Shown here one piece after another: positions 39,639 to 64,000 of a stretch of DNA of 64,000 nt. This DNA comes from Methanosarcina horonobensis HB-1 = JCM 15518 (GTDB taxonomy: Archaea > Halobacteriota > Methanosarcinia > Methanosarcinales > Methanosarcinaceae). Both the position numbers and the translations under genes were made by a program. Numbering within the stretch: the stretch's first letter is position 1; every line of letters begins with the position of its first letter. The notes beneath the pieces are model-generated. The model made no database searches and had not been told where the DNA came from. It saw only the letters and a list, made by a program, of their open reading frames with translations. The stretch covers positions 1,591,036 through 1,655,035 of the forward strand of contig NZ_CP009516.1 in assembly GCF_000970285.1 (NCBI RefSeq), written 5' to 3'.

Positions 39639-39649
39639 AGGTGCAGATA

Positions 39650-39892: not shown

Positions 39893-40063
39893 ATGAACTC
39901 TTTCTTTGAGGAAGATGATGATATACTTCCTCCAGAGCCTGACCTTTCTCAGTACATCGATGCTAGCATTTTTGAACAGCATTGTAAAGCCTGCAGACAT
40001 AGAATAATAGAAAGACAACAGGCAAGAAAACACAAACCTCAGACATTCAAGAGGGGAAAATAA
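39893..40063 (+). CDS. Small CxxC protein upstream of the primase (56 aa)
   Basis: A very strong ribosome site (GAGGGAGGAG) precedes the ATG at 39893, and the stop directly abuts the primase ATG (TAAATG), so the two are translationally coupled. The N-terminus is acidic (EEDDD), the middle has CKAC followed by His (CKACRHR), and the tail is basic. It may be a small zinc-binding accessory of the replication protein. No family recognised. Confidence 0.65.
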   Translation: MNSFFEEDDDILPPEPDLSQYIDASIFEQHCKACRHRIIERQQARKHKPQTFKRGK

Positions 40064-45471: not shown

Positions 45472-48400
45472 TTACCCTTGATTTAAAAAATTTCTAAATA
45501 TTTTCCACCATTTTCTATTTTTCTCCTCCCTCATTTCCGCTGTTTTCCTCTCAGCCCTCAGCCCAATTTTTTCTTCCCTTTTTTCCTCCATTTTTCCTTC
45601 TAATCTTTCAATATCTTTTCTTGCCATCTCTATATATGGAGATCCTAACTTCTCAAATATTTCAAACGCAGTGGAAGAAGCTTGAATGGCAAGTTTATAT
45701 TCTTCTCTCTTTTCGTATATTCTCCCTATCTGCCCTAATGTTGATGCAATTCCGCTTTTGTTCCCCAATTCTTCAAACATTACCAGTGCTTGGTTAAACT
45801 TTTTCATCGCTTCTTCATAGTTGCTCTGATTCTGATGAATCATTCCAATCGCGTGCAGAATTGCTGCAATTTCCCCTTTATCTCCCAACTCCTCTTGAAT
45901 TTTCAGTGCTTGGTTAAACTTTTTCACTGCTTCTTCATAGTTGCGTTGATCCTGATCAATCATTCCAAGCACGTGTAATGTTTTCGCAGCTCCATTTTTA
46001 TCCCCAAGATCTTCAAAATATTTCAGGGCTTCATTTAAATTTTTCGCTGCTTCTCCATAGTTTTCCTTCTCTTCATGAATAATTCCAAGTATGAAAAATA
46101 TCTGTTCGATTTCACTTTTGTCTCCTAGTTCTTCTTTAATTTCCAGAGATTGGTTACATAATTTCACTGCATATTCATAGTTTCCCTGGAGATAATGAAT
46201 TTTTCCAAGCGCGTACAGTATTTGTGAAATCTTACTTTTGTCCCCTAATTCTTTAAATATTTGTAGAGAATGTTTTAACTTTTCAAATGCTTCTTTATAG
46301 TTTCCACAATGCTGATCAATCAATCCAAGCTGGCACATTGCTACTGCAATTCCGTGTCTGTTCCCCACTTCTTCTGCAATTTCCAGAGACTCGTTATACT
46401 TTTTGATTGCTTTTGCATATTCATTCTGAAGATAGTAGATATTCGCAAGCTTGTAAAATGCTGACCCAATTAAGTATTTATTCCCCAGTTCCTCTGCACT
46501 TTTTAGAAATTGGCTATAGTTTTTAATCGCTCCTTCATAATCTCCCTGGTCCTGATGAATAGATCCAAGCTGGTCTGATGTTACTGCAATTCCACTTTTG
46601 TCCTCTAGTTCTTCAAACATTTTTAGGGCTTGGTTATAATTTTTTACTGATTCCTGCAAATCACCTAGAATGTAGTGAATATTTCCAAGTTGGTGTAATG
46701 TATCAGCGATTTCTTTTTTGTTTCCCAGCTCTTCAAATTTATCCAGACACTGGATATAAATTCTCCCTGCTTCTTCATAATTTCCATGTAGAAAATGAAT
46801 ATTTCCAAGCCTATCAAGCGTCGTTGCAATATCACTTATGTTTTTTAGTTCCTTTTTAATTTCTAAGGATTTACTATAACTGTCTATAGCCCCTTCATAG
46901 TTATTTTGTTTAAAATTCGCTTCACCGAGACGATCTAATAATTCCATGATTTCTATTTTGTTTTCAACTTCCGGATATATTTTTAGAGAATCTTCATACA
47001 TACTTACTGCTTCTCTGTAGTTACCTTCTTTGTAGTGGATCCTTCCAAGCTGGTATAATATTTTTGAAATTCCTCTTCTGTCTCCTATTTCTTTTTTTAA
47101 TTTCAGGGATTGTTTATACATTTTTGCTGCTTCTTCATATTTCCCCTGTGAATAATTTAAATTTCCAATTTGGAGCATTGTTATTGAAATTCCGTATTTA
47201 TTTCTCATCATTTCTGAAATTTCGAGAGATTGGTAATAGTACTTTTCTGCTTCTTCATAATTTCCTTGATCCTGATAAATCATCCCAAATGAATGAAATA
47301 CTTCTGAAATTCCACCCTTATCTCCAAGTTCCTCAAATATTTCCAGAGCTTGGTTATACTTTTTCATGGCTTCTTCGTAATTTCCCTGATGATAATGAAC
47401 GCTTCCAAGCTGGTAAAGTGCTCCTACAATTATATCCTTGCTTCCTATATCTTTTTGAATTTCAAGAACTTGGTTATATATATTCATCGCTTCTTCATAT
47501 TCTCCTCTATGCTCATGGACTATTCCGATATGATTCAATAATAGCGAAACTCCTCCTTTGTTTCCTGACTCTTCACATGTATTTTTTGCTTGGTTATATA
47601 TTTTATATGCTGTTTTCACATCTCCGAGACGATCAAAAATCATAGCAAGGGAAACTTCAGCGACCATTTTTTCTTCATCAGAAACTGTTTTAATGGATTC
47701 ATTCAAGAGACTCATTGATAGTTCAATGTAACCCCAACGGATTAGAGCATCTACAATTGTTAATACAATATGAGAGGCACATTCCCATTCCTCTGCTTGA
47801 AAATAGTAATCTCGCGCTCTCAGAATATCCCATATGTTTTTATTTTGATCTGCAAGATTTTCGTAATATTTGGCGGCTCTAAGAAGTAACTTCTTTTTAT
47901 CCAATGTTTCTTCTTTCAGCTTATTCTGAGCGAAATCTCTAACAATTGTATGTTCAGTATAAACTTTTCGATTATACACTTCTTCCTTTGAAAATAAACC
48001 CCGTTGGATTAGTTTCTGCAGTAGTTCTCCAACAAAAGGACTTTCATCAATTTCATCTCCTATAATCCACGATAAAGCTTCAACAGTGACTGCTTCTTCA
48101 TAAACTGAAGCGTAAAGAAAAAGTTTTTTAGTATCTGAATCCAGTTTCGAAAAAGATTTCTCCAGTAGAGTAAACTCAATTAATTCCTTTTTCAGAGATT
48201 GTAGGTCCAGTAGTAAGTCATCTACACCTTGAACAGAAGCAAGCCTTGCAAACTGTCCAACTGCCCAGGGGTTTCCACCTATTACATCATAGAGCTGCTT
48301 CTTTTTCTGGAGATCAAGAGTTGCAAGTTCATTATAATTATTCATCAGCCAGTTAGTCTGAGGGAAATGGAGTTCGGAAAGAGAAATATGTTCAATGCTT

Positions 48401-50064
48401 TCAGACAGCTTGCTTTCCATAGGATCGAAATCATAACGAGATGTTATGATGACTTTTGTATTGCTGATGGTGTTGTTCAGGAGGTACAGAATGAATGCTT
48501 TAAGTTCAGGGTTTTGAATTTCATTCCTGTCCTCGCTCAAGCAGTCTTCAAAACTGTCGAATATTATTAAGAAACGAAAATGGTTAAGTATACCTACTAG
48601 TACAGAGCTTTTAACCTCAAAAGATACCTGCTGATTGATAATCTGGCTAAGCTCATACCTTCCGTTCATTATAAGAAAGTCGTTTACCTTAGTAAGAATA
48701 TCTTCGGGTCTGGTACTCGAAGTACATTTCATTCCAAAAGTTCCGTCAAAGTACTCACCCATCTTTTGCTCAAATCTGGTTGCAAAAGCAGTTTTCCCTA
48801 TACCGCCAAAGCCATGAATAATTGCAGCTCTTTTTAAATCGGACTTAAAACATTTTTCAAGAATATGAAGCTCTTTTCTTCTGGCAACAAAACCCTTGTT
48901 CATCCTAGGTATATCTAACAATAACTTAGGTTTTATTGCAAATTCTGTGGGCTCTGGTTTAGAGTCTTTCACTTGTATACAATTATAATCTGATAGGTAC
49001 AGCACCGGCGTTCCAAAATCAAAGCCATTACTCTTTTCCGAGATATTTATTTCAATCCGGGCTTCTTTTAAAGCAAGGTCTACAGTTTTTCCGCTTGCAA
49101 TTGTCTTATAAAAAACAGATGCAAATTTTATTGCTATATCATCAAGTACTGAATATTGCATTGCCACGACAGCAGGAATTCCCTTTTTGGAAAGCATACT
49201 GGCTACATCATCAAAAGCTTCTTTATTTGAGCCTTTGGCCGATTCACAAGAACTAAGAACTACAAGCCTTATACCCATGTCTGAAAAGAGCTCAGCAAGA
49301 GTAATATTGTCTTCAAGCTTTGCTTTCCTGTCTTCGGTCTCGAGTATAAGATATCCTTTTCCATCAATGTTAGTCCCGTGTCCAGTGAAATGCACTATGT
49401 GATAGTTTCGCTCATTCAAGTAATTCTGGATGGTTTCAACAGTCGCGTCTTCTGTAAAATCCACTCTTATCTTATGGTCTCTTTGGAGCTTGTCCACAGC
49501 TTCTAGAATGATTTTCTGTTCTTTTTCAATGTTCAGGGGAGTAATCTTGGTATCATCTGGACTTGAGATTACTACAAGCATTCGGAGAATGGAATCCAGA
49601 GGCTTAGATTCTGTCTTCTTTATCCCAACCGGAAGCCTTGAGAGCAAAAACCTTCTCTTTGTGATTAAAAAGTCATCTTCGTCGTGGAGATATTCCCATG
49701 GTAATGCTGCAATATCAGGAACATCTTCACCGAATCTCATGGAAATCCTGAGCCCACAATTTTCATCCTGTGATTCTCTGGAACGTTTGTCGAAATAATC
49801 TCCCAGTTCTCCCGAAAATACAGTATTGTACAACATTTTTCCAAATTCTATATGAGTTATCTCCTCAGGCTGAGGTCTTGGAACTATAGCTTTCTTCTCA
49901 AGTTGATCCAGCATTTGAATAAGTTTAAGATCATGTCTGAGTTCAAAACTCTGAGTAACTTTAGTATCTCCGTTTTCCAAAATTGAAGCCCTATATAGAT
50001 TATGTGAACCTTCAGGTTCTTTTGTAATCTGCAGATCAAGAGAATAATAGTCCAGAATAATCAC
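45472..50064 (-). CDS. CHAT protease / STAND NTPase / TPR protein (1530 aa)
   Basis: Three parts. A caspase-like CHAT domain (about 70-365) has the His-Cys dyad His229 (HFTGHG) and Cys273 (LSSCES). A STAND/NB-ARC-type NTPase (about 390-700) has Walker A GFGGIGKT at 418-425 and Walker B FLIIFDSFED. A long array of about 17 TPRs of 40 residues (about 800-1480) is followed by a charged, coiled C-terminus. Such proteins are expected to sense a trigger through the TPRs, oligomerise and activate the protease. The start is GTG at 50064, embedded in AAAAGGTGATTATT, so the ribosome site and start codon overlap. It is last in the order CHAT paralogue, broken ribbon, broken membrane gene, this gene. The TPR region repeats with a 120-base period. 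Confidence 0.88.
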   Translation of the reverse strand: MIILDYYSLDLQITKEPEGSHNLYRASILENGDTKVTQSFELRHDLKLIQMLDQLEKKAIVPRPQPEEITHIEFGKMLYNTVFSGELGDYFDKRSRESQDENCGLRISMRFGEDVPDIAALPWEYLHDEDDFLITKRRFLLSRLPVGIKKTESKPLDSILRMLVVISSPDDTKITPLNIEKEQKIILEAVDKLQRDHKIRVDFTEDATVETIQNYLNERNYHIVHFTGHGTNIDGKGYLILETEDRKAKLEDNITLAELFSDMGIRLVVLSSCESAKGSNKEAFDDVASMLSKKGIPAVVAMQYSVLDDIAIKFASVFYKTIASGKTVDLALKEARIEINISEKSNGFDFGTPVLYLSDYNCIQVKDSKPEPTEFAIKPKLLLDIPRMNKGFVARRKELHILEKCFKSDLKRAAIIHGFGGIGKTAFATRFEQKMGEYFDGTFGMKCTSSTRPEDILTKVNDFLIMNGRYELSQIINQQVSFEVKSSVLVGILNHFRFLIIFDSFEDCLSEDRNEIQNPELKAFILYLLNNTISNTKVIITSRYDFDPMESKLSESIEHISLSELHFPQTNWLMNNYNELATLDLQKKKQLYDVIGGNPWAVGQFARLASVQGVDDLLLDLQSLKKELIEFTLLEKSFSKLDSDTKKLFLYASVYEEAVTVEALSWIIGDEIDESPFVGELLQKLIQRGLFSKEEVYNRKVYTEHTIVRDFAQNKLKEETLDKKKLLLRAAKYYENLADQNKNIWDILRARDYYFQAEEWECASHIVLTIVDALIRWGYIELSMSLLNESIKTVSDEEKMVAEVSLAMIFDRLGDVKTAYKIYNQAKNTCEESGNKGGVSLLLNHIGIVHEHRGEYEEAMNIYNQVLEIQKDIGSKDIIVGALYQLGSVHYHQGNYEEAMKKYNQALEIFEELGDKGGISEVFHSFGMIYQDQGNYEEAEKYYYQSLEISEMMRNKYGISITMLQIGNLNYSQGKYEEAAKMYKQSLKLKKEIGDRRGISKILYQLGRIHYKEGNYREAVSMYEDSLKIYPEVENKIEIMELLDRLGEANFKQNNYEGAIDSYSKSLEIKKELKNISDIATTLDRLGNIHFLHGNYEEAGRIYIQCLDKFEELGNKKEIADTLHQLGNIHYILGDLQESVKNYNQALKMFEELEDKSGIAVTSDQLGSIHQDQGDYEGAIKNYSQFLKSAEELGNKYLIGSAFYKLANIYYLQNEYAKAIKKYNESLEIAEEVGNRHGIAVAMCQLGLIDQHCGNYKEAFEKLKHSLQIFKELGDKSKISQILYALGKIHYLQGNYEYAVKLCNQSLEIKEELGDKSEIEQIFFILGIIHEEKENYGEAAKNLNEALKYFEDLGDKNGAAKTLHVLGMIDQDQRNYEEAVKKFNQALKIQEELGDKGEIAAILHAIGMIHQNQSNYEEAMKKFNQALVMFEELGNKSGIASTLGQIGRIYEKREEYKLAIQASSTAFEIFEKLGSPYIEMARKDIERLEGKMEEKREEKIGLRAERKTAEMREEKNRKWWKIFRNFLNQG

Positions 50065-50463: not shown

Positions 50464-50654
50464 TCGAATTATTTCTTACAATTGGGGAAGGCAATGTCTA
50501 TATACTGACTTTTAGGAGCTCTTTGCCTGAAATCTTATTAATACTAGGAAAATCTAAGCGCACTACAACCGTTTCACCGTCTTCAACAATTTTTTTCTGT
50601 ATCTGAGTAATATTTGTACCAACAAAAAGGGCATTTGATGAATTCAGAAATCAT
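50445..50654 (-). pseudogene. Broken zinc-ribbon gene of the second module copy
   Basis: Starting at the ATG at 50654, it reads MISEFIKCPFCWYKYYSDTE, aligned without gaps to the intact ribbon at 44259. An extra A in the run near 50590 then shifts the frame. The rest is recognisable in other frames (VEDGETVVVRL, and PNCKK followed by a stop codon). The first Cys of the second knuckle is replaced by Phe. Its start overlaps the stop of the upstream CHAT gene by 11 bases, and its end overlaps the membrane-protein remnant, as in the intact pair. Confidence 0.78.
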
Positions 50655-53600
50655 CTTTCAGCAGCCTCAAATACACATAAAATTCTTCTTTTCCTATTTT
50701 ATCTCGTAACTTGGAAAGGTATCCTACAACAATTTCCTTCTTTGGTGAATTCAGTTGCTTGAAGATTGAATAAGAATTGAGATAATTCTTGAGAGCACTA
50801 TAATATTCTTCCTTTTCTACATCTATTATTCCTATACTAAGCAGTGCAATTGCAATCCCACTTTTGTTCCCTAGCTCATTAAATTTTTCCAGAGACAGAT
50901 TATACTTTCTTACTGCTTCGTCATAGTTTCCCTGACGATAATGAATCATTCCAAGCTGGTGCAGCGTACCTGCGATTTCTTTTTTTTGCCCTAACTCTTC
51001 TGCGATTTTTAGAGACTGGTTATACTTTTTCATCGCTTCTTTGTAGTTTCCCTGGTACTCATGAGTCATTCCTATCTGATGGAGTATTTGTGCAGTTTCG
51101 CTTTTGTCTCCTAACTCTTCATTAATTTTTAGGGCTAGGTTATATTTTTCCGCTGCTTCTTCATAGTTGCCTTGAAGAAAATGAATATTTCCAAGCCCGT
51201 GCAGTGTTTGTGTAGTTCCCCTTTTGTCCCCTAGCTCCTCTTTAATTTTTAGGGCCAGGTTATATTTTTCCACTGCTTCTTCGTAGTTGCCCTGATTCTG
51301 ATAAATCACACCAAGCTCATGCAATGTATATGCAATTCCGCTTTTGTCTCCTAACTCTTCATTAATTTTTAGGGTTTGGTTATACATTTTAACTGCTTCT
51401 TCGTAGTTCCCCTGATCCTGATAAATCACACCAAGCTGGTGCAATGTACTTGCAATTCCGCTTTTGTCTCCCAGCTCCTCGTCAATTTTTAGGGCTTGAT
51501 TATACATTTTAACTGCTTCTTCGTAGTTCCCCTGATCCTGATAAATCATACCAAGCTGGCGCAATGTACATGCAATTCCGCTTTTGTCTCCCAGCTCCTC
51601 GTCAATTTTCAGGGACTGTTTGTATAATTTAAATGCCTCTTCGTAGTTTCCCTGATCCTGATAAATCACGCCAAGCGCATGAAGAACTGCAGCAACCCCT
51701 TTGTTATTCTCCCTTTTCTTAAATTTATATTTGAGGTTATTATATAATTCCAATGCTGTACTTAAATCTCCAATGCGATGATAAATTGTCGCAAGGGTAT
51801 ACTCGACATTTAATTTTGTATCACCTGATGTCGTATCGATAGAATCGTTTAACAGGCTCATTGCAAGTACGATATATCCCCCGCGGATCAGATAATTTAC
51901 TGTATTTTCTACAATTGCATTTGCACTTTCCCACTCTTCTGCCAGGAAGTAGTAATCTCGCGCCTTCAGGTAATCCCAGATGTTTCGAATTTGAAAAAAC
52001 AGATTCTCATAGTATCTGGCAGCTCTGATGAGAAGTTCTTTTTTGTCCAGTCCATCTTCTTCGAGTTTCTTCCGTGCAAAATCTTTTACAATGGTGTGCT
52101 CAAAGTAAACATTCTTGCCGTTATCCAGTTCTTTTGAGATGAGACCCCATTGAAGGAGTTTCTTAAGAGGTTCTCCTACAGAAGAACTTTCATCTTTTTC
52201 ATCTCCTATAATCCAGGATAATGCCTCGATTGGAATGGATTCTTCGTAGATTGAGGCGCACTGGAGCAGTTTTCTTGCTCTTTGATCCAGTTTGGAATAT
52301 GACTTGTCCAGCAGGGTGAACTCGATAAGCTCTTTTTTTAGGAGTTGAAGGTCCAGCAGTAAATCGTCCACTCCCTGACTGGAGGCAAGCACTGCGAATT
52401 GGCCTATTGTCCAGGGATGCCCTCCTATGGCATCGTATATTTCCTTTTTCTTTCTTATTCCCAGATATGTCAGTTCCGTAAAATTATTCATTAGCCACAT
52501 TGTCTGAGGAAAATAGAGTTCAGGAAGGGAAATATGTTCGATTCCTGAGGCTAGCCTGCCTTCAAGGGGATCAAAGTCATAGCGGGTTGTAATAATAAAT
52601 TTTGAGTTTCTGGTTGTGTTGTTAAGGAGATACTGGATGAATGTTTTAAGTTCGTGGTTTTCAATATCGTTCCTGTCTTCATTCAGACAATCTTCAAAGT
52701 TGTCGAAGATAACAAGGAACCTTATCTGATTCAATATCGTAACCAGTAAAGCAGTTTTAACTTCAAGTGGGATTTGCTGGTTCGTGATCTGGTTCAGCTC
52801 AGGTCTTCCCTTCATCAGCAAAAAGCTGTTGAATTTATTCAGGACATCTTCGGGTCTTGTTGTAGAGGTGCATTTTATCCCTAAGGTACCCTCGAAGTAA
52901 TAACCCATTTTCAACGCAAGTCGAGTTGCGAGTACGGTTTTTCCAATACCACCGAAGCCGTGGATGATTGCTGCCCGTTTTATTTCGGATTTGAAGCCTT
53001 TTTCAAGAAGCCTGAGTTCTTTTCTTCTGGCAACAAAGCCTTTTTCCATAACCTGCAAATCCAGCATCATATTCGGCTTGAAAACAAATTCAGAAGGATC
53101 CGGTTTTAAGTCCCCTACATGAACGCAATTGTGGTCTGATAAATATAGTACCGGAGTTGCAAAGTCAAATCCGTTGCTCTTATCCAAGTTCCTCATCGCG
53201 ATCCTTGCTTCTCTTAAAGCAAGATCAACAGGTTTCCCACTTACAATTGTTTTGTAAAAATTGTACGCAAACTTTGTGGCGACATCATCAAGTACGGAAT
53301 ATTGCATAGCTACTACAGCTGGTATTCTATTTTTTGATAGCATACTGGCTAAGTCACCGAAAGCTTCTTTGTTCGAACCTTTAGCTGATTCACAGGAACT
53401 GAGCACAACAAGCCTTATGCCTATGTCTGAAAAAAGATCTGCAAGGGTTTTGTTGTCTATAAGCTTGGCTTTTCGGTCTTCGGTTTCAAATACAAGGTGT
53501 CCTTTGTCGTTTATACTTATTCCATGTCCTGTGAAATGTACTATGTGATAATCTTGCTCGTTGAGATAGCCTTGGATGTTTTCAAAAGTGGCGTCTTCTG

Positions 53601-54210
53601 TAAAATCGACCTTGATTTTCTGGTCTTTCTGAAGTTTGTCTAGGGCTTCAAGAATAATTTCCTGCTCTTTTTCGGTGTTTAAGGGTGAAATTCCGGGATC
53701 ATCCGGGCTTGAAATTACTACCAGCATTCGGAGAATGGAATCCAGAGGCTTAGATTCGGTTTTCTTTACCCCTGCCGGAAGCCTTGAGAGCAAAATACTT
53801 CTTCTGGTAACTAAAAAGTCTTCTCCATCGTGTAAAAATTCCCATGGTAGAGCTGCAATTTCAGGAACATCATCATTTAATTGTATAGAAACCCTAAGTC
53901 CATAATTTTTCTCTTGTGCTTCATTAAAATGTTTATTGAAATAATTTCTCAGTTCTCCCGAAAATACAGTATTGTACAACATTTTTCCAAATTCTATATG
54001 AGTTATCTCTTGAGGCTGAGGTCTTGGAACTATAGCTTTCTTCTCAAGTTGATCCAGCATTTGAATAAGTTTAAGATCACGTTTGAGTTCAAAACTCTGA
54101 GTAACTTTAGTATCTCCATTTTCCAAAATTGAAGCCCTATATAGATTATGTGAACCTTCAGGTTCTTTTGTTATCTGCAGATCAAGAGAATAATAGTCCA
54201 GAACAATCAC
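50644..54210 (-). CDS. Second CHAT protease / STAND NTPase / TPR protein
   Basis: A paralogue of the gene at 45472 with the same plan but a shorter array. The CHAT domain has His229 and Cys273 (HFTGHG, LSSCES), the STAND NTPase has Walker A GFGGIGKT near 418, and there are about nine TPRs before a short non-repetitive tail. With the GTG at 54210 the protein has 1188 residues and aligns from residue 1 with its paralogue. The frame remains open for ten more codons upstream, but those codons fall in the shared promoter region. The dyad and P-loop are intact, so it is probably active. The different TPR number suggests that the paralogues recognise different triggers. A broken ribbon gene overlaps its 3' end. 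Confidence 0.87.
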   Translation of the reverse strand: MIVLDYYSLDLQITKEPEGSHNLYRASILENGDTKVTQSFELKRDLKLIQMLDQLEKKAIVPRPQPQEITHIEFGKMLYNTVFSGELRNYFNKHFNEAQEKNYGLRVSIQLNDDVPEIAALPWEFLHDGEDFLVTRRSILLSRLPAGVKKTESKPLDSILRMLVVISSPDDPGISPLNTEKEQEIILEALDKLQKDQKIKVDFTEDATFENIQGYLNEQDYHIVHFTGHGISINDKGHLVFETEDRKAKLIDNKTLADLFSDIGIRLVVLSSCESAKGSNKEAFGDLASMLSKNRIPAVVAMQYSVLDDVATKFAYNFYKTIVSGKPVDLALREARIAMRNLDKSNGFDFATPVLYLSDHNCVHVGDLKPDPSEFVFKPNMMLDLQVMEKGFVARRKELRLLEKGFKSEIKRAAIIHGFGGIGKTVLATRLALKMGYYFEGTLGIKCTSTTRPEDVLNKFNSFLLMKGRPELNQITNQQIPLEVKTALLVTILNQIRFLVIFDNFEDCLNEDRNDIENHELKTFIQYLLNNTTRNSKFIITTRYDFDPLEGRLASGIEHISLPELYFPQTMWLMNNFTELTYLGIRKKKEIYDAIGGHPWTIGQFAVLASSQGVDDLLLDLQLLKKELIEFTLLDKSYSKLDQRARKLLQCASIYEESIPIEALSWIIGDEKDESSSVGEPLKKLLQWGLISKELDNGKNVYFEHTIVKDFARKKLEEDGLDKKELLIRAARYYENLFFQIRNIWDYLKARDYYFLAEEWESANAIVENTVNYLIRGGYIVLAMSLLNDSIDTTSGDTKLNVEYTLATIYHRIGDLSTALELYNNLKYKFKKRENNKGVAAVLHALGVIYQDQGNYEEAFKLYKQSLKIDEELGDKSGIACTLRQLGMIYQDQGNYEEAVKMYNQALKIDEELGDKSGIASTLHQLGVIYQDQGNYEEAVKMYNQTLKINEELGDKSGIAYTLHELGVIYQNQGNYEEAVEKYNLALKIKEELGDKRGTTQTLHGLGNIHFLQGNYEEAAEKYNLALKINEELGDKSETAQILHQIGMTHEYQGNYKEAMKKYNQSLKIAEELGQKKEIAGTLHQLGMIHYRQGNYDEAVRKYNLSLEKFNELGNKSGIAIALLSIGIIDVEKEEYYSALKNYLNSYSIFKQLNSPKKEIVVGYLSKLRDKIGKEEFYVYLRLLKDDF

Positions 54211-54430
54211 CTTTTTAGAAAAAAAGTCTGAAATTATCAAATTTATAGTTATTGTTTCTTGCCTGAATTAAAATATAAAAGGAAATTAATTTTTACGAAA
54301 AATTAGGGATGAAAATAAGACTCGAAGCCTATAGCCTGGTCTATATTGAAAAAAAAGAAAATGCGACAAAGTAAAGTTACATTCTAAGCGTAAAAAACGT
54401 AAAATTTATTAATCTATGCTTAATTCACTC

Positions 54431-54567: not shown

Positions 54568-57500
54568 ATGTTAAATAGTATGTTTCTTGATAGAGAAGAG
54601 TACATTGAGTCTTTTAAATCTAATCTCAAAAATATAGACAAAAACAGCTGTAAGGTTTTATTTTATTATGGTATTTCTGGAGTGGGAAAGACTGCTCTAA
54701 TGAAGAAATTATCAACAGTAATAGAGGAGTACAATTCTCTCCAGCATTCTATAGAAATTCTATGGGAAGAGATGAATTTAGCAACAACCCCTATGGAAAT
54801 AGACACTTTCTTATTTGCTTTAAGAGACAAACTTAGTAGAAAATATAAAATTGGTTTTCCTTTTTTTGATATTGTTCATGCCATTTATTTTAAGAAAGCT
54901 TATCCTGATAAGCGGTTGAAGAATGAAAATTATTTTTTTTACGATGAAAATAGTATTATGGGCGGAATTAAGGCTATAAATCTCATAGAGACACTAGATA
55001 CAATTTCACAAAGAAAATTCCAAAGAGAACTTACAAACTATTTTGCAAATTTCTCTCTCCAATTTAATCACTTACAGAATAAACATATAGAAGAATTGTC
55101 TAAGTTACCTTATAAAGAGGTTGATGAAATAAAAAAATCTTTGCCATTTTATTGGGCTTTAGATTTCTGTGAGCATCTTTTACGAAACTCAAAGCCTGCT
55201 GTTATTTTTTTAGATACATATGAAGCTCTCAGAATAAATTCCATAAAAAATCTAGATTTTTATATAAGTGAGGACTGGTTAAGAGAATTTATATCCAGTA
55301 CCCCTTATACAATATGGGTCATTTGTGGGAGAGATGAGCTTAATTGGAAAGAGTTCGATGCTAGGTTTAAATGTATAATTGAAAAATATAAGCTTACTGG
55401 GCTTTCAGAAATATATTCTCGCAAATTGTTAAGTCACTATCAAATTGAAAGCAAAGAAATTCAAGACAAGATTTTAGACATTAGTGATGGTATTCCAGGT
55501 TATTTATCGATCTCTATTGATTCCTATGATGAGATTATAAGAACTGAAAATCGCTTACCCACAATACGTGATATATCTAAAGCATCTCCTTTAAATATAG
55601 AAAATATTTTGCAATATTTGACACCATCTGAAATTGAGCTTATTGAGATTCTTTCTATACCTAGATATTGGGATTATGATCTAGCTAAAAGTTTAACTGA
55701 TGAGTTTAATATCAGTTATAGATTAGAGGATTTTCCTACGTTATGTAATTTTTCCTTTGTAATCGAAAAGACGAAAGATAAATGGTTTATTCAGCAAACA
55801 ATTAGAGACAGCTTATTGGATTATATAGGGGTAAATGTCAAAAGAGAAGTAAATGCTTTTTTACTTAAATATTATAGCCGCAAACTAGAAAACCTCGACA
55901 TCAAAAAAATTACCTTCGAACACGAAACTGCTCTAACAGAGTCTTTTTACTATGCAAAAGAGATTCTAGATGCTGAAAACTTATTAAACTGGTTTATCAA
56001 ATATTCAGATACGTTTTACAGAGCTTCTTTCTGGCAATTGATTTCTCCAATGTATGAAGAAATATTATCAATTCTTGAAACTAATCTTGGTTCAGAGCAT
56101 CCATACGTTGTAAATACTTTGGATATTTTCGGAGGCATTCTTCAGAGACAGGGAAGACTTAACGAAGCAGAAAAAATGTTCAGAAAATACCTAAAAACCA
56201 TGGAAAGCATGGACGAAGAAAAATCTCAACCAATTGGTCTAAGAAGTCTGGAAAGTGAACTTTACGAAGACGGAATATTAGAAAAAACAGTAGAGATATT
56301 TAATGAAAACTTAAAAATCAATGAAAAAGTTCATGATTCAAAACCTCAGTTAGCTATTCTGAATAAGTTAGGAACAATTCTCAAAGATCAAGGCAAGTTG
56401 TTGGAAGCAGAAGAAACACTTCTAAAAAGCTTGAGTATAGCGGAAAAATATGACGACTCCAAATCCAAGTCAATTATTCTCAACAGTTTGGGAAGCATTC
56501 TTCAAAAACAGGGTAAATTGAGGGAAGCAGAAGAGATATTTAAACAAAGTCTACGTATTGCAGAAAAGCTCGATGATTTTAACTCCCAGTTAATTATATT
56601 TTTCAATTTGGGAAGTACTCTTGAGAAACAAGGTAGATTGAGGGAGGCAGAAACTACTTTTCAAGAGAGCTTGCATATAGCGAAAAAACTCGATGATTCA
56701 AAATTTCTGTCAATTATCCTGAACAGTTTGGGAAGCATTCTTCAGAGACAGGGTAGATTGAGGGAAGCAGAAACTACTTTTCAAGAGAGCTTGCATATAG
56801 CGAAAAAACTCGATGATTCAAAATTTCTGTCAATTATCCTGAACAGTTTGGGAAGCATTCTTCAAAAACAGGGTAAATTGAGGGAAGCAGAAGATATATT
56901 TAGAGAAAGTCTACGTATTGCAGAAAAGCTCGATGATTTTAACTCCCAGTTAATTATATTTTTCAATTTGGGAAGTACTCTTGAGAAACAAGGTAGATTG
57001 AGGGAAGCAGAAACTACTTTTCAAGAGAGCTTGCATATAGCGAAAAAACTCGATGATTCCAAATTTCAGTCAATTATCCTGAACAGTTTGGGAAGCATTC
57101 TTCAAAAACAGGGTAAATTGAGGGAAGCAGAAACTACTTTTCAAGAGAGCTTGCATATAGCGAAAAAACTCGATGATTCCAAATTTCAGTCAATTATCCT
57201 GAACAGTTTGGGAAGCATTCTTCAAAAACAGGGTAAATTGAGGGAAGCAGAAGAGATATTTAGAGAAAGTCTACGTATTGCAGAAAGGCTCGATGATTTT
57301 AACTCTCAATCTATTGCTCTTATCAGTTTGGGTAGCACTCTTGAGGAACAGGATAGATTGAGGGAATCTGAAGAGATATTTAGGGAAAGCTTGCGTATTG
57401 CGGAAAGACTCGATGATTCTAAATCCAAGTTAGTTGCTCTTAATAGTTTAGGAAGTATCTATCAGAAACAAAGAAGGTTTAAGGAAGCAGAAAAAATATT

Positions 57501-59667
57501 GAGGAAATCATTGAGTCTCGCACAGGAAATTGACGATATAACTTCTCAATATCTAGCATTGAACAATCTTGGAAGGATGTTTAAAGAGCAGGGAAAACTC
57601 AGAAAAGCCCTTCTATATTATCAGCGGGTACTTGAATCTCGTGAAGAATTGTTTGGATCCGAACATCCAGACGTCGCTACTACACTTGACGATATTGCTG
57701 ATCTTTATGGAAGTATGGGAGAATACAAAAAAGCCCTCCAGTTTTATCAGCGCTCACTTAAAATTAATGAAAAGGCGCTAGGTCCACAACACCCAGATTT
57801 TGCAACTACATTAGATAATCTTGCTGGTCTTTACGGAAAAATTGGGGAATACGAAAAATCACTCAATTTTTATCAGCGGGCTCTTGAAATCCGTGAAAAG
57901 ATATTTGGACCTGAACATCCAGAAGTTGCTACAACACTTGACAATTTTGCGGGTCTTTATGAACATATGAGAGAATATGAAAAAGCCCTCCTATTTTACC
58001 AGCGAGTTCTTGAAATCCGTGAAAAGATATTTGGGCCAGAACATTTAAAAGTGGCTACTACGCTAAACAATTTAGCTAGGATATATCACCAAATTAGAGT
58101 CAGATCTAAAAGAGATTCGAAATCTCTTTATGCTGATTGTGAAACTATACCTCCCATCAAGGAAATTATTCTAGAGAGATATAGAGATTATCCAATAAAC
58201 AAAAATTTCTGTTTCGGAAAGGTAAACCTCTTTTGCGGAGAAAATGGAAGTGGTAAAACATCTTTACTTGAGGCAATTGAATTATTAGTTTGTGGAAATA
58301 ATTTGAGAAATCCAGCAAAACCTGATAGATTAACTTCTATAAAAGTGCGTTATGATGGTAGATCTTATTTTGAATCTTTAGATTTAGATAACAATGAAAT
58401 ATTCAAACTAAGAGACTCTTATTGGTATAACAACCGTGATCAGGAAAATAATAATCTTTGTCTGAGTTTCAACAGGTACAATTTCTATAATACAGATACG
58501 TCATTTAGACTATTTTATGAAGAATCATCAGGGGGGCTCAGAGAAATATTTGAGACTGTAGCTTTAGGCAAAGATATAAACAAAATTGAAAAAAAAATTG
58601 ATGCGTATAAATCTATAATTAAGGCAGAATTGGACAGACAAAAGAATACTCTTCTTGAGTTTTCGAATATAATAAACAGAGAAAAAGATAACATACAAAA
58701 ATTAATTAATATAAATAGAGAGTATAATAATGATGTCAATTATTCTCTTCAAGACGATATTCTGGAACTTGAGTCAGAGTTTCAAGCTTTTTGTCAAGTT
58801 TATAACGAGTTTAAAAGTCAGAGTGTCGATCTCTACTCTATTGATGATCAATTCCAAAATATTAAATCACAATTTTATGACTTCAATAAAATCTATTTAG
58901 AACTAAGAGACAAAGACCATTATAGTAATTTTTTATCAACAATTAAAGAAAATGTATCCATCATCAAACAACATATAGAAAAGATAGAAAAAATTAAGGA
59001 AAATAATGAAAAGCTACTGCAAGGACACCTTACAATTGAAAATATCCAAAAGAATTACAGTAAAGAAACATATTTCCTCGATTTTTTAAATGAGAATAAA
59101 AAAGAGATATTTAAAATATTTAGTGTTATTCATTCGCCTGAAGAATTTGATGATATTGATTTCGATAGCGACTCAAATATAATTTTAAAACGCAAAGATT
59201 CTTCTGAATTCGCAAATTTGTCTACAATAAGTACTGGACAAAGATCTGCATTGGCACTATCTATATTTTTGTCGTTAAATAAAAAATTAACGAGGGGTCC
59301 TCCTTATCTAATTTTTGACGATCCGGTCTCCTTTATAGATGATATAAACACTTTATCTTTTATTGACTATTTGAGGGAGATCGCATTACAGACTGATAAG
59401 CAAATATTTTTTGCCACCGCAAACGAGAACTTAGCATTTTTATTTTCTCAAAAATTTAAATTTTTAGGTGACTCTTTCAAGGCTTACAAACTAACCCGAA
59501 AAAGAGATGTATTGGATTTGAGATCATATGACATTGATAAAGAATCTAAATTAAAAACGAGTGAAATCAGAAAGAAAACTTTAGAAGTTAATGATTTTTC
59601 GCCACTTGAACTGAACTCAAATATTATCTCTATTAAATGGAATAATTCTGATACACTGCCTTTCTAA
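54568..59667 (+). CDS. STAND NTPase-TPR-ABC (SMC-like) ATPase fusion protein (1699 aa)
   Basis: An unusual fusion. The N-terminus is a STAND/AAA NTPase with Walker A GISGVGKT at 35-42 and Walker B VIFLDTYEAL at 212-221. About 16 TPRs follow (about 500-1180): the first dozen are 40-residue units ending in DDSK or DDFN, the last four are 42-residue kinesin-light-chain-like units. The C-terminal 500 residues are a complete ABC ATPase of the SMC/Rad50 kind: Walker A GENGSGKT at 1224-1231, a long coiled-coil insert (about 1320-1500), signature STGQRSALALS from 1555, and Walker B with D-loop YLIFDDPVSFIDD from 1580. GGAGGT precedes the ATG. It is followed after 24 bases by a nitrilase-like gene. 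I infer a sensor-activated DNA- or effector-controlling machine. Confidence 0.88.
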   Translation: MLNSMFLDREEYIESFKSNLKNIDKNSCKVLFYYGISGVGKTALMKKLSTVIEEYNSLQHSIEILWEEMNLATTPMEIDTFLFALRDKLSRKYKIGFPFFDIVHAIYFKKAYPDKRLKNENYFFYDENSIMGGIKAINLIETLDTISQRKFQRELTNYFANFSLQFNHLQNKHIEELSKLPYKEVDEIKKSLPFYWALDFCEHLLRNSKPAVIFLDTYEALRINSIKNLDFYISEDWLREFISSTPYTIWVICGRDELNWKEFDARFKCIIEKYKLTGLSEIYSRKLLSHYQIESKEIQDKILDISDGIPGYLSISIDSYDEIIRTENRLPTIRDISKASPLNIENILQYLTPSEIELIEILSIPRYWDYDLAKSLTDEFNISYRLEDFPTLCNFSFVIEKTKDKWFIQQTIRDSLLDYIGVNVKREVNAFLLKYYSRKLENLDIKKITFEHETALTESFYYAKEILDAENLLNWFIKYSDTFYRASFWQLISPMYEEILSILETNLGSEHPYVVNTLDIFGGILQRQGRLNEAEKMFRKYLKTMESMDEEKSQPIGLRSLESELYEDGILEKTVEIFNENLKINEKVHDSKPQLAILNKLGTILKDQGKLLEAEETLLKSLSIAEKYDDSKSKSIILNSLGSILQKQGKLREAEEIFKQSLRIAEKLDDFNSQLIIFFNLGSTLEKQGRLREAETTFQESLHIAKKLDDSKFLSIILNSLGSILQRQGRLREAETTFQESLHIAKKLDDSKFLSIILNSLGSILQKQGKLREAEDIFRESLRIAEKLDDFNSQLIIFFNLGSTLEKQGRLREAETTFQESLHIAKKLDDSKFQSIILNSLGSILQKQGKLREAETTFQESLHIAKKLDDSKFQSIILNSLGSILQKQGKLREAEEIFRESLRIAERLDDFNSQSIALISLGSTLEEQDRLRESEEIFRESLRIAERLDDSKSKLVALNSLGSIYQKQRRFKEAEKILRKSLSLAQEIDDITSQYLALNNLGRMFKEQGKLRKALLYYQRVLESREELFGSEHPDVATTLDDIADLYGSMGEYKKALQFYQRSLKINEKALGPQHPDFATTLDNLAGLYGKIGEYEKSLNFYQRALEIREKIFGPEHPEVATTLDNFAGLYEHMREYEKALLFYQRVLEIREKIFGPEHLKVATTLNNLARIYHQIRVRSKRDSKSLYADCETIPPIKEIILERYRDYPINKNFCFGKVNLFCGENGSGKTSLLEAIELLVCGNNLRNPAKPDRLTSIKVRYDGRSYFESLDLDNNEIFKLRDSYWYNNRDQENNNLCLSFNRYNFYNTDTSFRLFYEESSGGLREIFETVALGKDINKIEKKIDAYKSIIKAELDRQKNTLLEFSNIINREKDNIQKLININREYNNDVNYSLQDDILELESEFQAFCQVYNEFKSQSVDLYSIDDQFQNIKSQFYDFNKIYLELRDKDHYSNFLSTIKENVSIIKQHIEKIEKIKENNEKLLQGHLTIENIQKNYSKETYFLDFLNENKKEIFKIFSVIHSPEEFDDIDFDSDSNIILKRKDSSEFANLSTISTGQRSALALSIFLSLNKKLTRGPPYLIFDDPVSFIDDINTLSFIDYLREIALQTDKQIFFATANENLAFLFSQKFKFLGDSFKAYKLTRKRDVLDLRSYDIDKESKLKTSEIRKKTLEVNDFSPLELNSNIISIKWNNSDTLPF
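56461..57420 (+). repeat. In-frame 120-bp tandem repeats within the TPR array
   Basis: Eight consecutive 120-base units, each one TPR. Several are almost identical: the unit starting AGGGA(A/G)GCAGAAACTACTT occurs at 56641, 56761, 57001 and 57121. A higher-order 360-base period is visible, since 56521-56760 closely matches 56881-57120. The near-identity at DNA level means recent expansion by unequal crossing over or slippage. Confidence 0.9.
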
Positions 59668-59691
59668 ATATTTTTCATTTTGGTGGGTACA

Positions 59692-61515
59692 ATGGCAACT
59701 TTAGAATTTATAGATGATTTTTTAAAAAATAAGTTTGAGAATCCTCGTTTAAATATGCTAAACGCTGAGAACGAATCATATAGTATGCTACTTTTTCAAC
59801 CAATTGGGGAAATATATACTACAAGTGTGATTCGTAGTGTAGGAAGTTCAGAGAAACGAAATTACTTCGTAAAAAATAATGATCCCCAGTCTTATGAAAA
59901 ATTTAAAGGGTTTTTTAAATTAGCAATTGATAATAAAGCAGATCTTGCTGTCACTCCTGAGTACTCATGCCCTTGGAAAGCAGTTATCGAATTGATAAAG
60001 AATCGTAAATTTCCAGAATACGGGAAGTTATGGGTTATTGGGTGTGAATCGATTAAGCCTGAGTGCTTAGGAAATATCATTAAATATTATCGTAATGAGA
60101 AACATGGATATAATGACAAGATAACATGGATTTGTGAGGAAGATAAGCTAAAATCTAAGAAAAGTGGGCAGTTTTTAGACGCCATGTGCTATATATTTAA
60201 AGTGAAAAAATTAGACGGCATTGAAGAACATACTATTATTTTAGTGCAGTTCAAAACAGATCCTATGGGCTCTATACCTCATGAAATTGAACACATGTTA
60301 AAAGGGAATATAATATATGTGATTCGAAACCAGGAAAGTGGAATTAATTTATTTACATTGATTTGCTCTGATAGCTTGAATTTTAGAATTGAAGATATCA
60401 TAAAAAATAAAAATATTAACTTTGAACAGTTAGCGTATGTTATAATTCATCTCCAATTAAACACAAGTCCAAGAAATAGTCAATTCTCTAAGTATAGAAA
60501 AGATTGCTATTTTAAAAAATCTTCCAATAAAAATATTATATGTTTAAATTGGGCAAGAGACACTAAGATTTGTGAAGAAACATTAAAATTTGGAGGTTCT
60601 GCTCTATATTTTAAACGATCAGAGAATCCCGCATCAAAATATAGAACTTTGGAAGAAAATGACTTAATAATGAATGATAACCATAAAAAAGGTCTTTACT
60701 ATAATTTTTGCGAACCTTATCGTGGAGATATTTACTTCTTTAATTACAGTGAGCATGTATTTTTTTTAAGTAGTCCAACTGCTTCTCAATTCATGTTACA
60801 ACCTCAACAACAAATCTCATTAGAACCACAGATGATTTCTGTTTATCATTGGAATAGAGATTTTTTAGATGATTCTAATGCAAATGATGGATTTAATGAG
60901 CAAGTAAAAAAATTAAGACAAAATAAGATTTACTCGAATTTAATAGACTCAACTCTCGATCCAATTAATAAGGAAAGGCTAATTGCATTATCCACTGGTC
61001 AAGCGAGATTTAATGACTGGTATGATTTAAGAAAATCCAAATTATTTTTTGCCAACGATAATGAATCAAATAACAGAATTTCTTGTTGGCATGATCCAGA
61101 TTCTGATTCTGTTCGAAAAAAATATATATTGAATCTTTTTGGGGAGTTAAATAAGTATGTAAAGGATGAAAATAATTTTCCGGATGGTATCCAAAATCTT
61201 CAAAATAAATGTTTTGTGTCATACGAAATAGATCCAAAGAATAAAGAATCTTATAATTATAATTTGTACCCTAAAAAGAATTATAAAAATAAAATTCCTC
61301 CTGCAACAGTATCTTATCTCGGTACTGAGGATAAAAACACAGCTATGAATGTTTGGAAAGATATGTGTAAACTGTTTCGCGGAAGTCAGGCAGTTAAAAG
61401 GGTTGTAGTTTGGTATGTTGACGGAAGTCGTATAATACCTATAGTCAAAAAAGGCCCTCCAAAAATCAATGATAATACTAGTATTTCCTGCACTTCCTAT
61501 AAGAAGGCGAGATAA
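59692..61515 (+). CDS. Nitrilase-superfamily-like protein (607 aa)
   Basis: The first 300 residues have the carbon-nitrogen hydrolase pattern: catalytic Glu90 in AVTPEYS, Lys188 in VQFKTDP, and nucleophile Cys225 in LFTLICSDSLNF, followed by the expected YVIIHLQLN and IICLNWAR strands. The C-terminal 300 residues are unrecognised. The enzyme would hydrolyse an amide, nitrile or similar bond, but the substrate is unknown. The ATG at 59692 follows GGTGGG. The frame also runs back to a TTG at 59680. It lies 24 bases after the STAND-TPR-ABC gene and directly abuts the next TPR gene (TAAATG), so the three are co-expressed. It could be the effector of the system. The assignment rests on motif pattern only. 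Confidence 0.7.
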   Translation: MATLEFIDDFLKNKFENPRLNMLNAENESYSMLLFQPIGEIYTTSVIRSVGSSEKRNYFVKNNDPQSYEKFKGFFKLAIDNKADLAVTPEYSCPWKAVIELIKNRKFPEYGKLWVIGCESIKPECLGNIIKYYRNEKHGYNDKITWICEEDKLKSKKSGQFLDAMCYIFKVKKLDGIEEHTIILVQFKTDPMGSIPHEIEHMLKGNIIYVIRNQESGINLFTLICSDSLNFRIEDIIKNKNINFEQLAYVIIHLQLNTSPRNSQFSKYRKDCYFKKSSNKNIICLNWARDTKICEETLKFGGSALYFKRSENPASKYRTLEENDLIMNDNHKKGLYYNFCEPYRGDIYFFNYSEHVFFLSSPTASQFMLQPQQQISLEPQMISVYHWNRDFLDDSNANDGFNEQVKKLRQNKIYSNLIDSTLDPINKERLIALSTGQARFNDWYDLRKSKLFFANDNESNNRISCWHDPDSDSVRKKYILNLFGELNKYVKDENNFPDGIQNLQNKCFVSYEIDPKNKESYNYNLYPKKNYKNKIPPATVSYLGTEDKNTAMNVWKDMCKLFRGSQAVKRVVVWYVDGSRIIPIVKKGPPKINDNTSISCTSYKKAR

Positions 61516-64000
61516 ATGGACACTAATAAGCTGATAAACATACTGAAAGATTATAATTATACAAAAATAGAAAAAATCAAGAGAGAAAAGGTAATTAGAT
61601 GTGAAAAACATCATAATGAATTACCGTATGAGATCTATTATTATGACTATTCAGAGAAATGTTGGACTGAAAGCAATTTTAGTTTGGATGAATATTTAAC
61701 TAAAGTTATAGCAAACAATTATTATTTAAATTCTGGTCCTTTACAATGGAACTATTATATTGTATTTTTGTATAGTGATATGCAAAAAATAATCGAAGCA
61801 ATAAAACAAAATAAAAAAGTTAATAGTACGAAAAAGGCTGTTGAAATATTCGAAAGTACAAAAGAGGCTATTAAGAGAAATGACGATTTTGCTAAAAAAA
61901 ATATTGTTTGTTTTAATGCTTTATCAGATTGGTTAGATAAAAAGTACAAAATTAACTTTGATAGCCCGATATCAGTGGATCGAAGTTTAAGCACATTGTG
62001 GATTAATGAGCTTAAAGTAAACAATCTAGATTTCGTTTATTCTAATGATATTGGTTTAAATGAAAGTTTTGATTCATTTATAAAAAATAACATATTTAAA
62101 GATTACTTTGATGAATCTCACGCCCTTTATCAACGTGCATTAGAAATTCGTGCCCGTATTTTAGGCGAAAATCATCCAGATTACATAAACACTTTGAGCA
62201 GTATAGCTGAGTTATACAAAGATATGGAAAAGTATGATGAAGCCTTGGTTGTGTATCAGAATATTTTAGAAATTCGTGCCCGTACTTTAGGCGAAAATCA
62301 TCCAGATTACATAAACACTTTGAGCAGTATAGCTGAGTTATACAAAGATATGGAAAAGTATGACGAAGCCTTGGTTGTGTATCAGAATATTTTAGAAATT
62401 CGTGCCCGTTTCTTAGATGAGAATTATCCAGATAATATAAACACTTTAAACAGTATAGCTGAATTATATAAAAATATTGGAGAGTATAAGGATGCAATGG
62501 GATGCTATAAGCGTATATTAAATATGTACGAAAAAGCTTCCGGTATTACAGATGTTGACGTAGCAGTTACTACTAATAATTTAGCTAATTGTTATCAATA
62601 TCTAGCAATGTATGATGAAGCTTTACCGCTTTATAAGAGAGTTATTGATATTTTAAATTCGTCTCCAAATTCCAAAGATCTTGCACTAGGAAGTGCTTTA
62701 AATAATCTTTCTGAACTTCACAAAAACCTAGGTCAGTTTCAAGAAGCTTTACATTTTTGTAAACAAGCTCTCAATGTTAGCGAGAATCTCTTAGGTCCAA
62801 ATCATCCTAAAGTAGCTACAATCTTAAATAATCTTGCAGGTATTCATACAAAAATGGGAAGATATGAAGAAGCTATGCGTCTCTATTATCGTGCCTTAGA
62901 GATCCGTGAAAGATCATTTGGAGAGAAAAATCCGTATGTTGCCATAACTCTGAACAATCTTGCAGGACTTTACACGAGTATAGGAAGACATGAGGAAGCT
63001 TTGCTTTTTTATAACCGTTCTTTAGAGATCAATGAAAAATTGTTTGGAGAAGAGCACCCCTTTATTGCAACGGCACTAAACAATCTTGCAGGACTTTACC
63101 AAAATAAGGGAGAGTATGAAAAAGCTGAATCTCTTTACAACCGTGCTCTTGAAATCATAAGAAATTCTCTTGGAGAGGAACATCCCAATGTTGCTATTAC
63201 TCTGAACAATCTTGCAGGACTTTACGTGAGCGTAGGAAGATTCGAGGAAGCTTTACTTTTTTATAATCATTCTTTAGAGATCAATAAAAAATTGTTTGGA
63301 GAAGAGCACCCCTTTATTGCAACGACACTAAACAATCTTGCAGGACTTTACCAAAATAAGGGAGAGTATGAAAAAGCTGAATCTCTTTACAATCGTGCTC
63401 TTGAAATCATAAGAAATTCTCTTGGAGAGGAACATCCCCATATTGCTGTTACTCTAAACAATCTTGCAGGACTCTACAAGAATTTAAAAAGGTATGACGA
63501 AGCACTACTTTACTATACTGAAGTCTTCAATATTAATAAACGCATCTTAAAACCAAAAGATCCAGAATTAGGATTAATACTTAACAATCTTGGTCTTTTG
63601 CTTTTAGATATGGATCTTTTCGAAGAAGCTAAGCAAATGTTCGAAAAAGCACTCGAGATCTACACCGAACCTACGAAGCAACAGATTATAGGTAAGAAAG
63701 CAGAATCAATAATACGGCTTATCACACTGAACTCAAAACAAGCGGAAAGAGAAACTAATCCCTTTAATCAGATGAAATATCTGAGAGAAGCATTTAACCT
63801 ATGCAAAAAAAATAGGGATTTTTTTCTCAAATATGAACTAAAGCAAGAAAGAAAATTAGTTACAGAAATGGGTTTGAGCGCATACATCGACTTTTTAATG
63901 ATAAATATAAGATTTGAAGTTAATTCCAATAAAAGAGCGAGAGAATATGAACAGGCTTTACAAACTGTCGAAAAACTAGGTGAAAATGAAAGTGATGAAC
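61516..64000 (+). CDS. TPR (kinesin-light-chain-like) protein, runs off the window
   Basis: The ATG at 61516 directly follows the stop of the nitrilase-like gene, and the frame is open for at least 828 codons to the window end. Residues 1-195 form an unrecognised, aromatic-rich domain (YEIYYYDYSEKCW, LQWNYYIVFLYSD). TPRs of 42 residues follow from about 198 to 700, with the typical ALNNLAGLY and LGENHPD signatures, and then a helical region. It was probably translated together with the two upstream genes. It may be a sensor or scaffold partner of the ABC fusion. The position next to an ABC ATPase is reminiscent of the middle component of ABC three-component conflict systems, but I cannot assign that domain. 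Confidence 0.82.
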   Translation, partial: MDTNKLINILKDYNYTKIEKIKREKVIRCEKHHNELPYEIYYYDYSEKCWTESNFSLDEYLTKVIANNYYLNSGPLQWNYYIVFLYSDMQKIIEAIKQNKKVNSTKKAVEIFESTKEAIKRNDDFAKKNIVCFNALSDWLDKKYKINFDSPISVDRSLSTLWINELKVNNLDFVYSNDIGLNESFDSFIKNNIFKDYFDESHALYQRALEIRARILGENHPDYINTLSSIAELYKDMEKYDEALVVYQNILEIRARTLGENHPDYINTLSSIAELYKDMEKYDEALVVYQNILEIRARFLDENYPDNINTLNSIAELYKNIGEYKDAMGCYKRILNMYEKASGITDVDVAVTTNNLANCYQYLAMYDEALPLYKRVIDILNSSPNSKDLALGSALNNLSELHKNLGQFQEALHFCKQALNVSENLLGPNHPKVATILNNLAGIHTKMGRYEEAMRLYYRALEIRERSFGEKNPYVAITLNNLAGLYTSIGRHEEALLFYNRSLEINEKLFGEEHPFIATALNNLAGLYQNKGEYEKAESLYNRALEIIRNSLGEEHPNVAITLNNLAGLYVSVGRFEEALLFYNHSLEINKKLFGEEHPFIATTLNNLAGLYQNKGEYEKAESLYNRALEIIRNSLGEEHPHIAVTLNNLAGLYKNLKRYDEALLYYTEVFNINKRILKPKDPELGLILNNLGLLLLDMDLFEEAKQMFEKALEIYTEPTKQQIIGKKAESIIRLITLNSKQAERETNPFNQMKYLREAFNLCKKNRDFFLKYELKQERKLVTEMGLSAYIDFLMINIRFEVNSNKRAREYEQALQTVEKLGENESDE
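62140..62391 (+). repeat. Two nearly identical 126-bp TPR-coding repeats
   Basis: Units starting TTAGAAATTCGTGCCCGT at 62140 and 62266 are almost identical over 126 bases, and a third starting at 62392 is already diverging. Each encodes one 42-residue TPR. Confidence 0.85.
62992..63495 (+). repeat. Duplicated 252-bp unit (two TPRs)
   Basis: 62992-63243 and 63244-63495 match closely over 252 bases, a duplication of a pair of TPRs within the same gene. Few differences are visible by eye. Confidence 0.85.

Follow-up and report, generated by a model that had tools for sequence, protein, structure and literature searches.

The three-gene operon at the end of the window (the whole stretch of 64,000 nucleotides analysed, G000:C1:1591036-1655035 of a genome in a single contig of 5.02 Mb) is, on sequence comparison, a rearranged Lamassu/ABC-3C system with a C-N hydrolase (nitrilase-fold) protein as predicted effector. 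Its unusual part, judged by the same comparison, is the STAND-TPR-SMC hybrid and not the nitrilase effector; earlier publication of the hybrid or of the two-gene form is possible. The explanation favoured as a whole, with somewhat better than even confidence, is a Lamassu/ABC-3C operon with its ATPase split and placed on a STAND-TPR protein, the products of which would form a three-protein complex with a receptor-gated nitrilase effector. We infer a defence role from family membership and genomic neighbourhood.

Gene layout

All three genes are real and intact (Table 1). The open reading frames named in the initial annotation are present in the ORF listing, the third continuing beyond the window to window-equivalent position 65889 (G000:C1:1656924, from the genome sequence). 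Chance ORFs are ruled out by lengths of 1699, 611, and 1457 amino acids and by homologues in the same order in Methanosarcina sp. KYL-1, which belongs to the same genus as the window genome. Gene 2 encodes 611 amino acids from TTG and 607 from an alternative ATG start at 59692; the gap between genes 1 and 2 is 12 nt (24 nt if gene 2 begins at ATG), and gene 3 abuts gene 2 with a gap of 0 nt. In the arrangement shared by the window and KYL-1, here called the split form, gene 1 has the SMC head after its STAND-TPR part and gene 3 has the MC1 domain before its TPRs; the nitrilase gene sits between the two ATPase parts, so that the same three modules as in the two-gene form stand in permuted order.

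Table 1 Features of the operon, in window positions. Residue numbers are those of the respective protein.
Feature	Position	Strand	Remarks
Gene 1 (P1)	54568..59667	+	1699 aa; STAND NTPase, TPR, and LmuB/SMC-type ABC head
STAND NTPase region	54568..56007	+	Residues 1-480; family of stand-alone STAND-TPR proteins of related methanogens
TPR array, 120-nt (40-aa) units	56249..57508	+	From repeat analysis of gene 1
TPR units of 126 nt (42 aa)	57603..58077	+	Adjoin SMC head; unit length equals that of gene 3
SMC/ABC N-terminal head half	58156..58602	+	Residues 1197-1345; Walker A GENGSGKTS
Short coil, 145 aa	58603..59037	+	Without CPxC zinc hook
SMC/ABC C-terminal head half	59038..59505	+	Residues 1491-1646; signature, Walker B
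Gene 2 (P2)	59680..61515	+	LmuA-like predicted effector: nitrilase-fold domain and C-terminal region
Nitrilase (C-N hydrolase) fold	59764..60831	+	Residues 29-384; AlphaFold2 model, pLDDT 88
Predicted triad Glu94, Lys192, Cys229	59959-59961, 60253-60255, 60364-60366	+	Numbering from TTG
Gene 3 (P3)	61516..64000	+	Interrupted by window end; 1457 aa in full
ABC-3C middle component (MC1/LmuC-like) domain	61519..62061	+	Residues 2-182
TPR array, 126-nt units	62100..63578	+	Gene 3; outer limits approximate
Start of exchanged 3' part	63579..64000	+	DNA match to TPR-nitrilase gene L127

Gene 2, the predicted effector

The nitrilase fold proposed earlier for gene 2 is supported by the predicted model, which matches the nitrilase superfamily over residues 29-384 (best match, glutamine-dependent NAD synthetase, Z 16.7, rmsd 3.6 over 229 residues). 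By title, the best 50 fold rows are NAD synthetases, amidases, carbamoylases, Nit proteins, Lnt, and similar proteins, with one titled hypothetical. The triad read in the initial annotation as Glu90-Lys188-Cys225 is 94/192/229 when counted from TTG and is invariant in all 35 aligned sequences of the gene 2 family, the window included. LmuA effectors combine an enzymatic N-terminus with a C-terminal docking domain; in the gene 2 family the enzyme domain is N-terminal, and the C-terminal part of the relatives matches no known domain family. Gene 2 itself has no significant match in Pfam, PADLOC, or NCBIfam. Of 35 relatives, one matches Pfam CN_hydrolase (0.033) and five match PADLOC LmuA PDLC03850 at E<=0.1 (best 4.1e-9; window gene 2 not among them), the match falling in the nitrilase domain in the two relatives inspected. 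Window gene 2 is retrieved at 2.8e-148 by a family profile made without the split-system rows. Against PDB sequences the nitrilase profile has no match at E<=1, and gene 2 has no homologue in phage records at E<=1e-3.

Among the folds nearest to the model are the NAD synthetase glutaminase domain, amidases, and the N-acyltransferase Lnt, and the fold does not set the substrate. Such an enzyme might make or remove a small signal, or act as a glutaminase-like feeder of ammonia or an acyl group, and not as a cell poison. We consider this improbable, as no synthetase or transferase partner occurs among the family matches listed for the three proteins, the recurring partner is the MC1-SMC protein, and LmuA is described as an attacking effector in the available part of PMC10586767.

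Gene 3, middle component and TPR array

Gene 3 had been described as a TPR partner with an unfamiliar N-terminal domain; it does abut gene 2 and carry TPRs, but its N-terminus is the ABC-3C middle component and its C-terminus is nitrilase-like. Pfam MComp1 matches 33 of 34 MC1 members (best 6.4e-10; the sole exception is the window row), a count made at E<=0.1 and not at Pfam's own cut-off, below which P0002 falls (20 vs 27.3 bits). PADLOC LmuC matches nine of the 34. The window domain has no direct match to Pfam MComp1 or PADLOC LmuC and joins the family via its relatives; an MC1 profile made without the split-system rows retrieves window gene 3 at 4.1e-25. For the MC1 domain model (61516-62055, pLDDT 89.7) nothing in the fold search reached E<=0.001; several chains of restriction-endonuclease fold stand among the top VIA rows (BstEII 7.9, BspD6I 6.9, EcoT38I 6.4), with Z values of a size that can be common background. 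MC1 against PDB sequences gave two chance-level rows (0.28 and 0.39), and no Lamassu structure is among the matches listed in the fold searches (gene 2, MC1) or the PDB sequence searches.

Neighbouring 126-nt TPR units at 62140-62273 and 62266-62399 are 99% identical, probably through a recent in-frame duplication; the nearly identical pair suggests that the array is still changing. From about residue 688 to near its end, gene 3 has 73% DNA identity to a TPR-nitrilase gene (L127) of G096, another Methanosarcina. Its C-terminus, outside the window, is a second nitrilase-like domain with the catalytic Cys replaced by Gly. The TPR-nitrilase family has matches in 21 of 111 family genomes (the window genome and some short matches included). 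Its alignment has 20 rows, with L053 being the window gene again and L076 repeating L067, and the Cys is kept in all 17 other distinct loci; a role of the second nitrilase as an active second effector was rejected on this comparison. The gene 3 end has no match in plasmid records at E<=1e-3. Related to this C-terminus is the TPR-nitrilase protein family of methanogens (L054-L069, L075).

Gene 1, STAND-TPR part and SMC head

The earlier domain reading of gene 1, a STAND NTPase with TPRs and an SMC-like ABC ATPase, holds, with its motifs and both head halves now located. The STAND region contains GISGVGKT at residue 35, AVIFLDTYEA at 211, and GIPGYL at 308, which we take to be the P-loop, Asp motif, and GxP motif of STAND NTPases; Pfam AAA_16 scores 23.5 bits, below its cut-off of 32.6. 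The ABC motifs are intact (Walker A GENGSGKTS at 1224, signature STGQRSA at 1555, Walker B YLIFDDP at 1580). In PADLOC the best non-TPR match of gene 1 is LmuB (3.2e-19), beside mad3 (7.4e-19), and an SMC-head profile made without the split-system rows retrieves gene 1 at 4.9e-106.

Two-gene form and split form

Scanning about 85,000 genomes, one for each species, for homologues yielded 38 nitrilase loci from many bacterial phyla and archaea. In 34 of these an MC1-SMC gene comes next after the nitrilase gene, on the same strand (two-gene operon), and one, KYL-1, has the split form. The co-occurrence check put forward in the initial annotation thus found an MC1/SMC partner in 35 of the 38 scanned loci, in three of three plasmid loci, and, as an MC1 neighbour beside the nitrilase gene, in four of four further archaeal loci. 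As for the three remaining scanned loci, L028 and L052 end at a contig border, and L024, the nitrilase frame of which is also short, showed no partner within 1.8 kb. Irregular two-gene loci are L032 (nitrilase in two frames) and L051 (short ATPase without C-terminal head); L044 was missed by the MC1 profile, yet matches MComp1.

The three gene 2 homologues in plasmid records are each followed by a gene for an SMC-like ATPase of 987-1041 aa with LmuB as best PADLOC match (2.5e-30, 6.1e-33, and 6e-31). In the Polaromonas plasmid ATPase, the N-terminal part corresponds to that of window gene 3 (3e-10) and the head to the C-terminus of gene 1 (4e-38, 40% identity over 178 columns). An unrelated trio is ruled out, MC1 and SMC being one protein in the relatives.

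Two genomes, that of the window and KYL-1, are known to have the split form. Among 185 genomes of the order, five match the SMC head, with a frame of about 1690-1700 aa in G000 and G095 (KYL-1) only; the match in one of the five, G124, is interrupted by a contig end. In the SMC-head tree these two genomes group as a single clade (100/99), and their heads are 64% identical. In the nitrilase tree the window groups with L038 (98/84) and not with KYL-1, a single split clade not being rejected (p-AU 0.145); the MC1 tree left the split-system grouping without resolution. None of the loci examined has TPRs between MC1 and SMC, as an intermediate would.

Two-gene ATPases with both head halves have a coil of 493-550 aa and a CPxC hook in 35 of 36 distinct cases; the coil of the split form measures 145 aa in the window and 286 aa in KYL-1, and the zinc hook is absent in both. 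Since the long coil and hook, taken as DNA-sensing, are gone and a receptor-like STAND-TPR part is present, the receptor is proposed to gate the heads and thereby the effector. The main rival to the receptor as gate is that Lamassu still senses DNA via its SMC heads, the STAND-TPR and TPR parts being recombination passengers, a scaffold, or idle. It would agree with the intact ABC motifs, with a 3' part of gene 3 that varies by locus and in the window ends, passenger-like, in a nitrilase without catalytic Cys, and with L050 (Lachnospiraceae, L050:9965-13521), the exception above, a 615-aa MC1-SMC protein with a coil of 72 aa, no hook, and yet no STAND. We regard it as unlikely, given that coil and hook are otherwise kept in the two-gene ATPases and lost in both split systems, that the STAND motifs of the window are intact, and that both fusions are still open frames of 1687-1699 aa despite an identity of about 39% between their nitrilase proteins.

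Origin of the fusion

At E<=1e-5, 31 of 111 family genomes have a match to the STAND region family, a count that includes its own genome and a number of matches over short stretches only. The site of the KYL-1 operon was compared in six other genomes (G006, G007, G096, G008, G079, and G103). Between the same flanks it holds one uninterrupted STAND-TPR gene in G006 (1074 aa), G007 (1083 aa), G096 (785 aa), and G008 (1009 aa), three of which have further ORFs in the same interval. G079 and G103 have no STAND-TPR gene at the equivalent site; the second flanking gene was not found in G103. The STAND part of KYL-1 is 65-67% identical in G006, G007, and G096 and gives no DNA alignment in G008. From about residue 371, KYL-1 gene 3 and its flank share 81.5% DNA identity with the G006 gene over its 3' end and flank; this tail match is with G006 only, and in G007, G096, and G008 the match stops at the flank. 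The gene 3 tails thus match different TPR genes (the window that of G096, KYL-1 that of G006), so that the 3' ends differ between genomes, with junctions at TPR repeats.

As part of the favoured explanation as a whole, a two-gene operon would have been split and recombined with TPR-containing genes of the host. As an idea for the route, a circular molecule carrying nitrilase and MC1-TPR-SMC that integrated into a STAND-TPR gene via TPR homology would yield the permuted order. We offer as a tentative proposal, short of an even chance, that a STAND-TPR immune receptor took over a Lamassu effector complex by recombination of TPR arrays, with hook and long coil lost and the last gene gaining its 3' end from the TPR gene at the landing site.

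Genomic neighbourhood

In a neighbour scan (122 of 125 chosen ORFs from 21 of 38 loci, PADLOC at E<=1e-10, no control set) the families among the matches listed include type III methyltransferases, AbiE, MADS mad2, and GajB-like helicases. Of 269 matched families, the 25 listed have two members each, and some of these pairs may reflect the near identity of loci L046 and L047. An annotated Hachiman pair (HamA and helicase) is found about 4 kb away from one of the plasmid copies.

An amidase that serves metabolism or regulation together with an ATPase partner, and has no defence function, would be compatible with the literature covered, in the consulted parts of which no phage assay is reported for the nitrilase subfamily. 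We think this very improbable in view of the sparse spread of gene 2 homologues (four of 111 family genomes and seven of 392 phylum genomes, the window genome included) over many bacterial phyla and archaea, the plasmid copies and the Hachiman pair near one of them, the kinship to LmuB, LmuC, LmuA, and ABC-3C, and the restriction, AbiE, and MADS-type genes among the 122 scanned neighbours, a scan made without a control set.

Beside the operon, on the minus strand at 45472-50064 and 50644-54240, lie two genes (1530 and 1198 aa) whose products are much alike at the N-terminus and carry TPR arrays; both have NB-ARC matches, one above and one below cut-off, and they presumably resemble CHAT-type protease STAND-TPR proteins. 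The stretch 36776-43144 holds two ORFs, one resembling a tyrosine recombinase and a large one resembling a primase/helicase (both named by eye), which suggest an integrated element next to the STAND-TPR genes.

Relation to known systems

AVAST (Avs) systems are STAND NTPases with a repeat sensor. Gene 1 matches 17 PADLOC families, none of them an Avs model, and the STAND unit of the window is fused to an SMC head instead. The stand-alone STAND-TPR proteins of Methanosarcina and relatives share the N-terminal 480 residues and TPRs with gene 1 and, for KYL-1, the same chromosomal site, but in the compared loci they lack an SMC head, with neither a nitrilase nor an MC1 gene next to them.

With Lamassu/ABC-3C (LmuA-LmuC-LmuB; DdmABC) the operon shares an SMC/Rad50-like ATPase, a middle component, and an operon-borne effector with N-terminal enzyme domain. 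The initial annotation had hinted at ABC three-component systems, and the MComp1, LmuC, and LmuB matches of the relatives bear this out. In the sections of PMC10586767 covered, ABC-3C is treated as part of the Lamassu superfamily, and C-N hydrolase is listed among the LmuA effector types. Kinship to MComp1, LmuC, LmuA, and LmuB, the nitrilase fold, and this listing therefore point to Lamassu/ABC-3C with an already known effector class. The earlier claim that no described system has a nitrilase effector falls with that listing and with the LmuA model PDLC03850, and the effector was dropped as a novelty. The initial annotation had further allowed that the architecture might be an already named system; this applies to the core, which is Lamassu/ABC-3C, whereas the STAND-TPR fusion remains unusual.

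The same source (in the part available) reports that the middle component is missing in some Lamassu systems, that many but not all LmuB have a zinc hook, and that LmuB shows a Walker B Glu-to-Gln change; absence of the hook from some LmuB means that it is not a defining Lamassu feature. The window head differs from LmuB in being without the hook and in having DD in Walker B, not the Glu-to-Gln change (PMC10586767, as far as covered). In the ordinary nitrilase-type members found here, MC1 and the ATPase are one protein; the window has a split ATPase, with the head on STAND-TPR and MC1 on TPR.

The DRT/UG1 and UG5 RT-nitrilase systems likewise have a nitrilase domain in a phage-defence setting (PMC9122126 and PMC8934634, in the portions seen). 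No reverse transcriptase is among the matches listed for the three proteins in Pfam and NCBIfam or in the full PADLOC results, and RT-nitrilase models match two of 35 gene 2 homologues weakly (0.0089 and 0.016).

No description of a STAND-SMC fusion was found in the literature searched, which did not extend to Krishnan 2020, the Lamassu structure papers, or Millman 2022. The one paper found on Lamassu, STAND, and TPR together concerns, in the text available, nuclease-protease pairs and not a STAND-SMC fusion.

Proposed mechanism

Lamassu activation is described, in the parts of PMC12409362 and PMC12799240 covered, as release of the effector and its oligomerisation. For the receptor-gated operon favoured here, the three proteins would assemble into one complex, in which the STAND-TPR part would take over from the lost long coil and zinc hook and recognise an infection cue. 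NTP-dependent oligomerisation of STAND would lead to engagement of the SMC heads, by which the nitrilase effector would be freed or clustered; the nitrilase would then hydrolyse an essential amide, possibly a glutamine- or NAD-related metabolite, and growth would stop. An SMC-type defence machine may in this manner have come under the control of an immune-receptor-like STAND sensor.

With the two-gene form and its hook, the split form, and unsplit STAND-TPR genes at the same site all on record, the operon is a testable case of a sensor change in a defence machine. The two-gene relatives would constitute a nitrilase-bearing Lamassu subfamily, spread over many bacterial phyla and archaea, of which the PADLOC LmuA models catch five of 35 at E<=0.1. 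If the proposed reading is true, a single polypeptide would join two large branches of prokaryotic immunity, the NLR-like STAND receptors and the SMC-type complexes.
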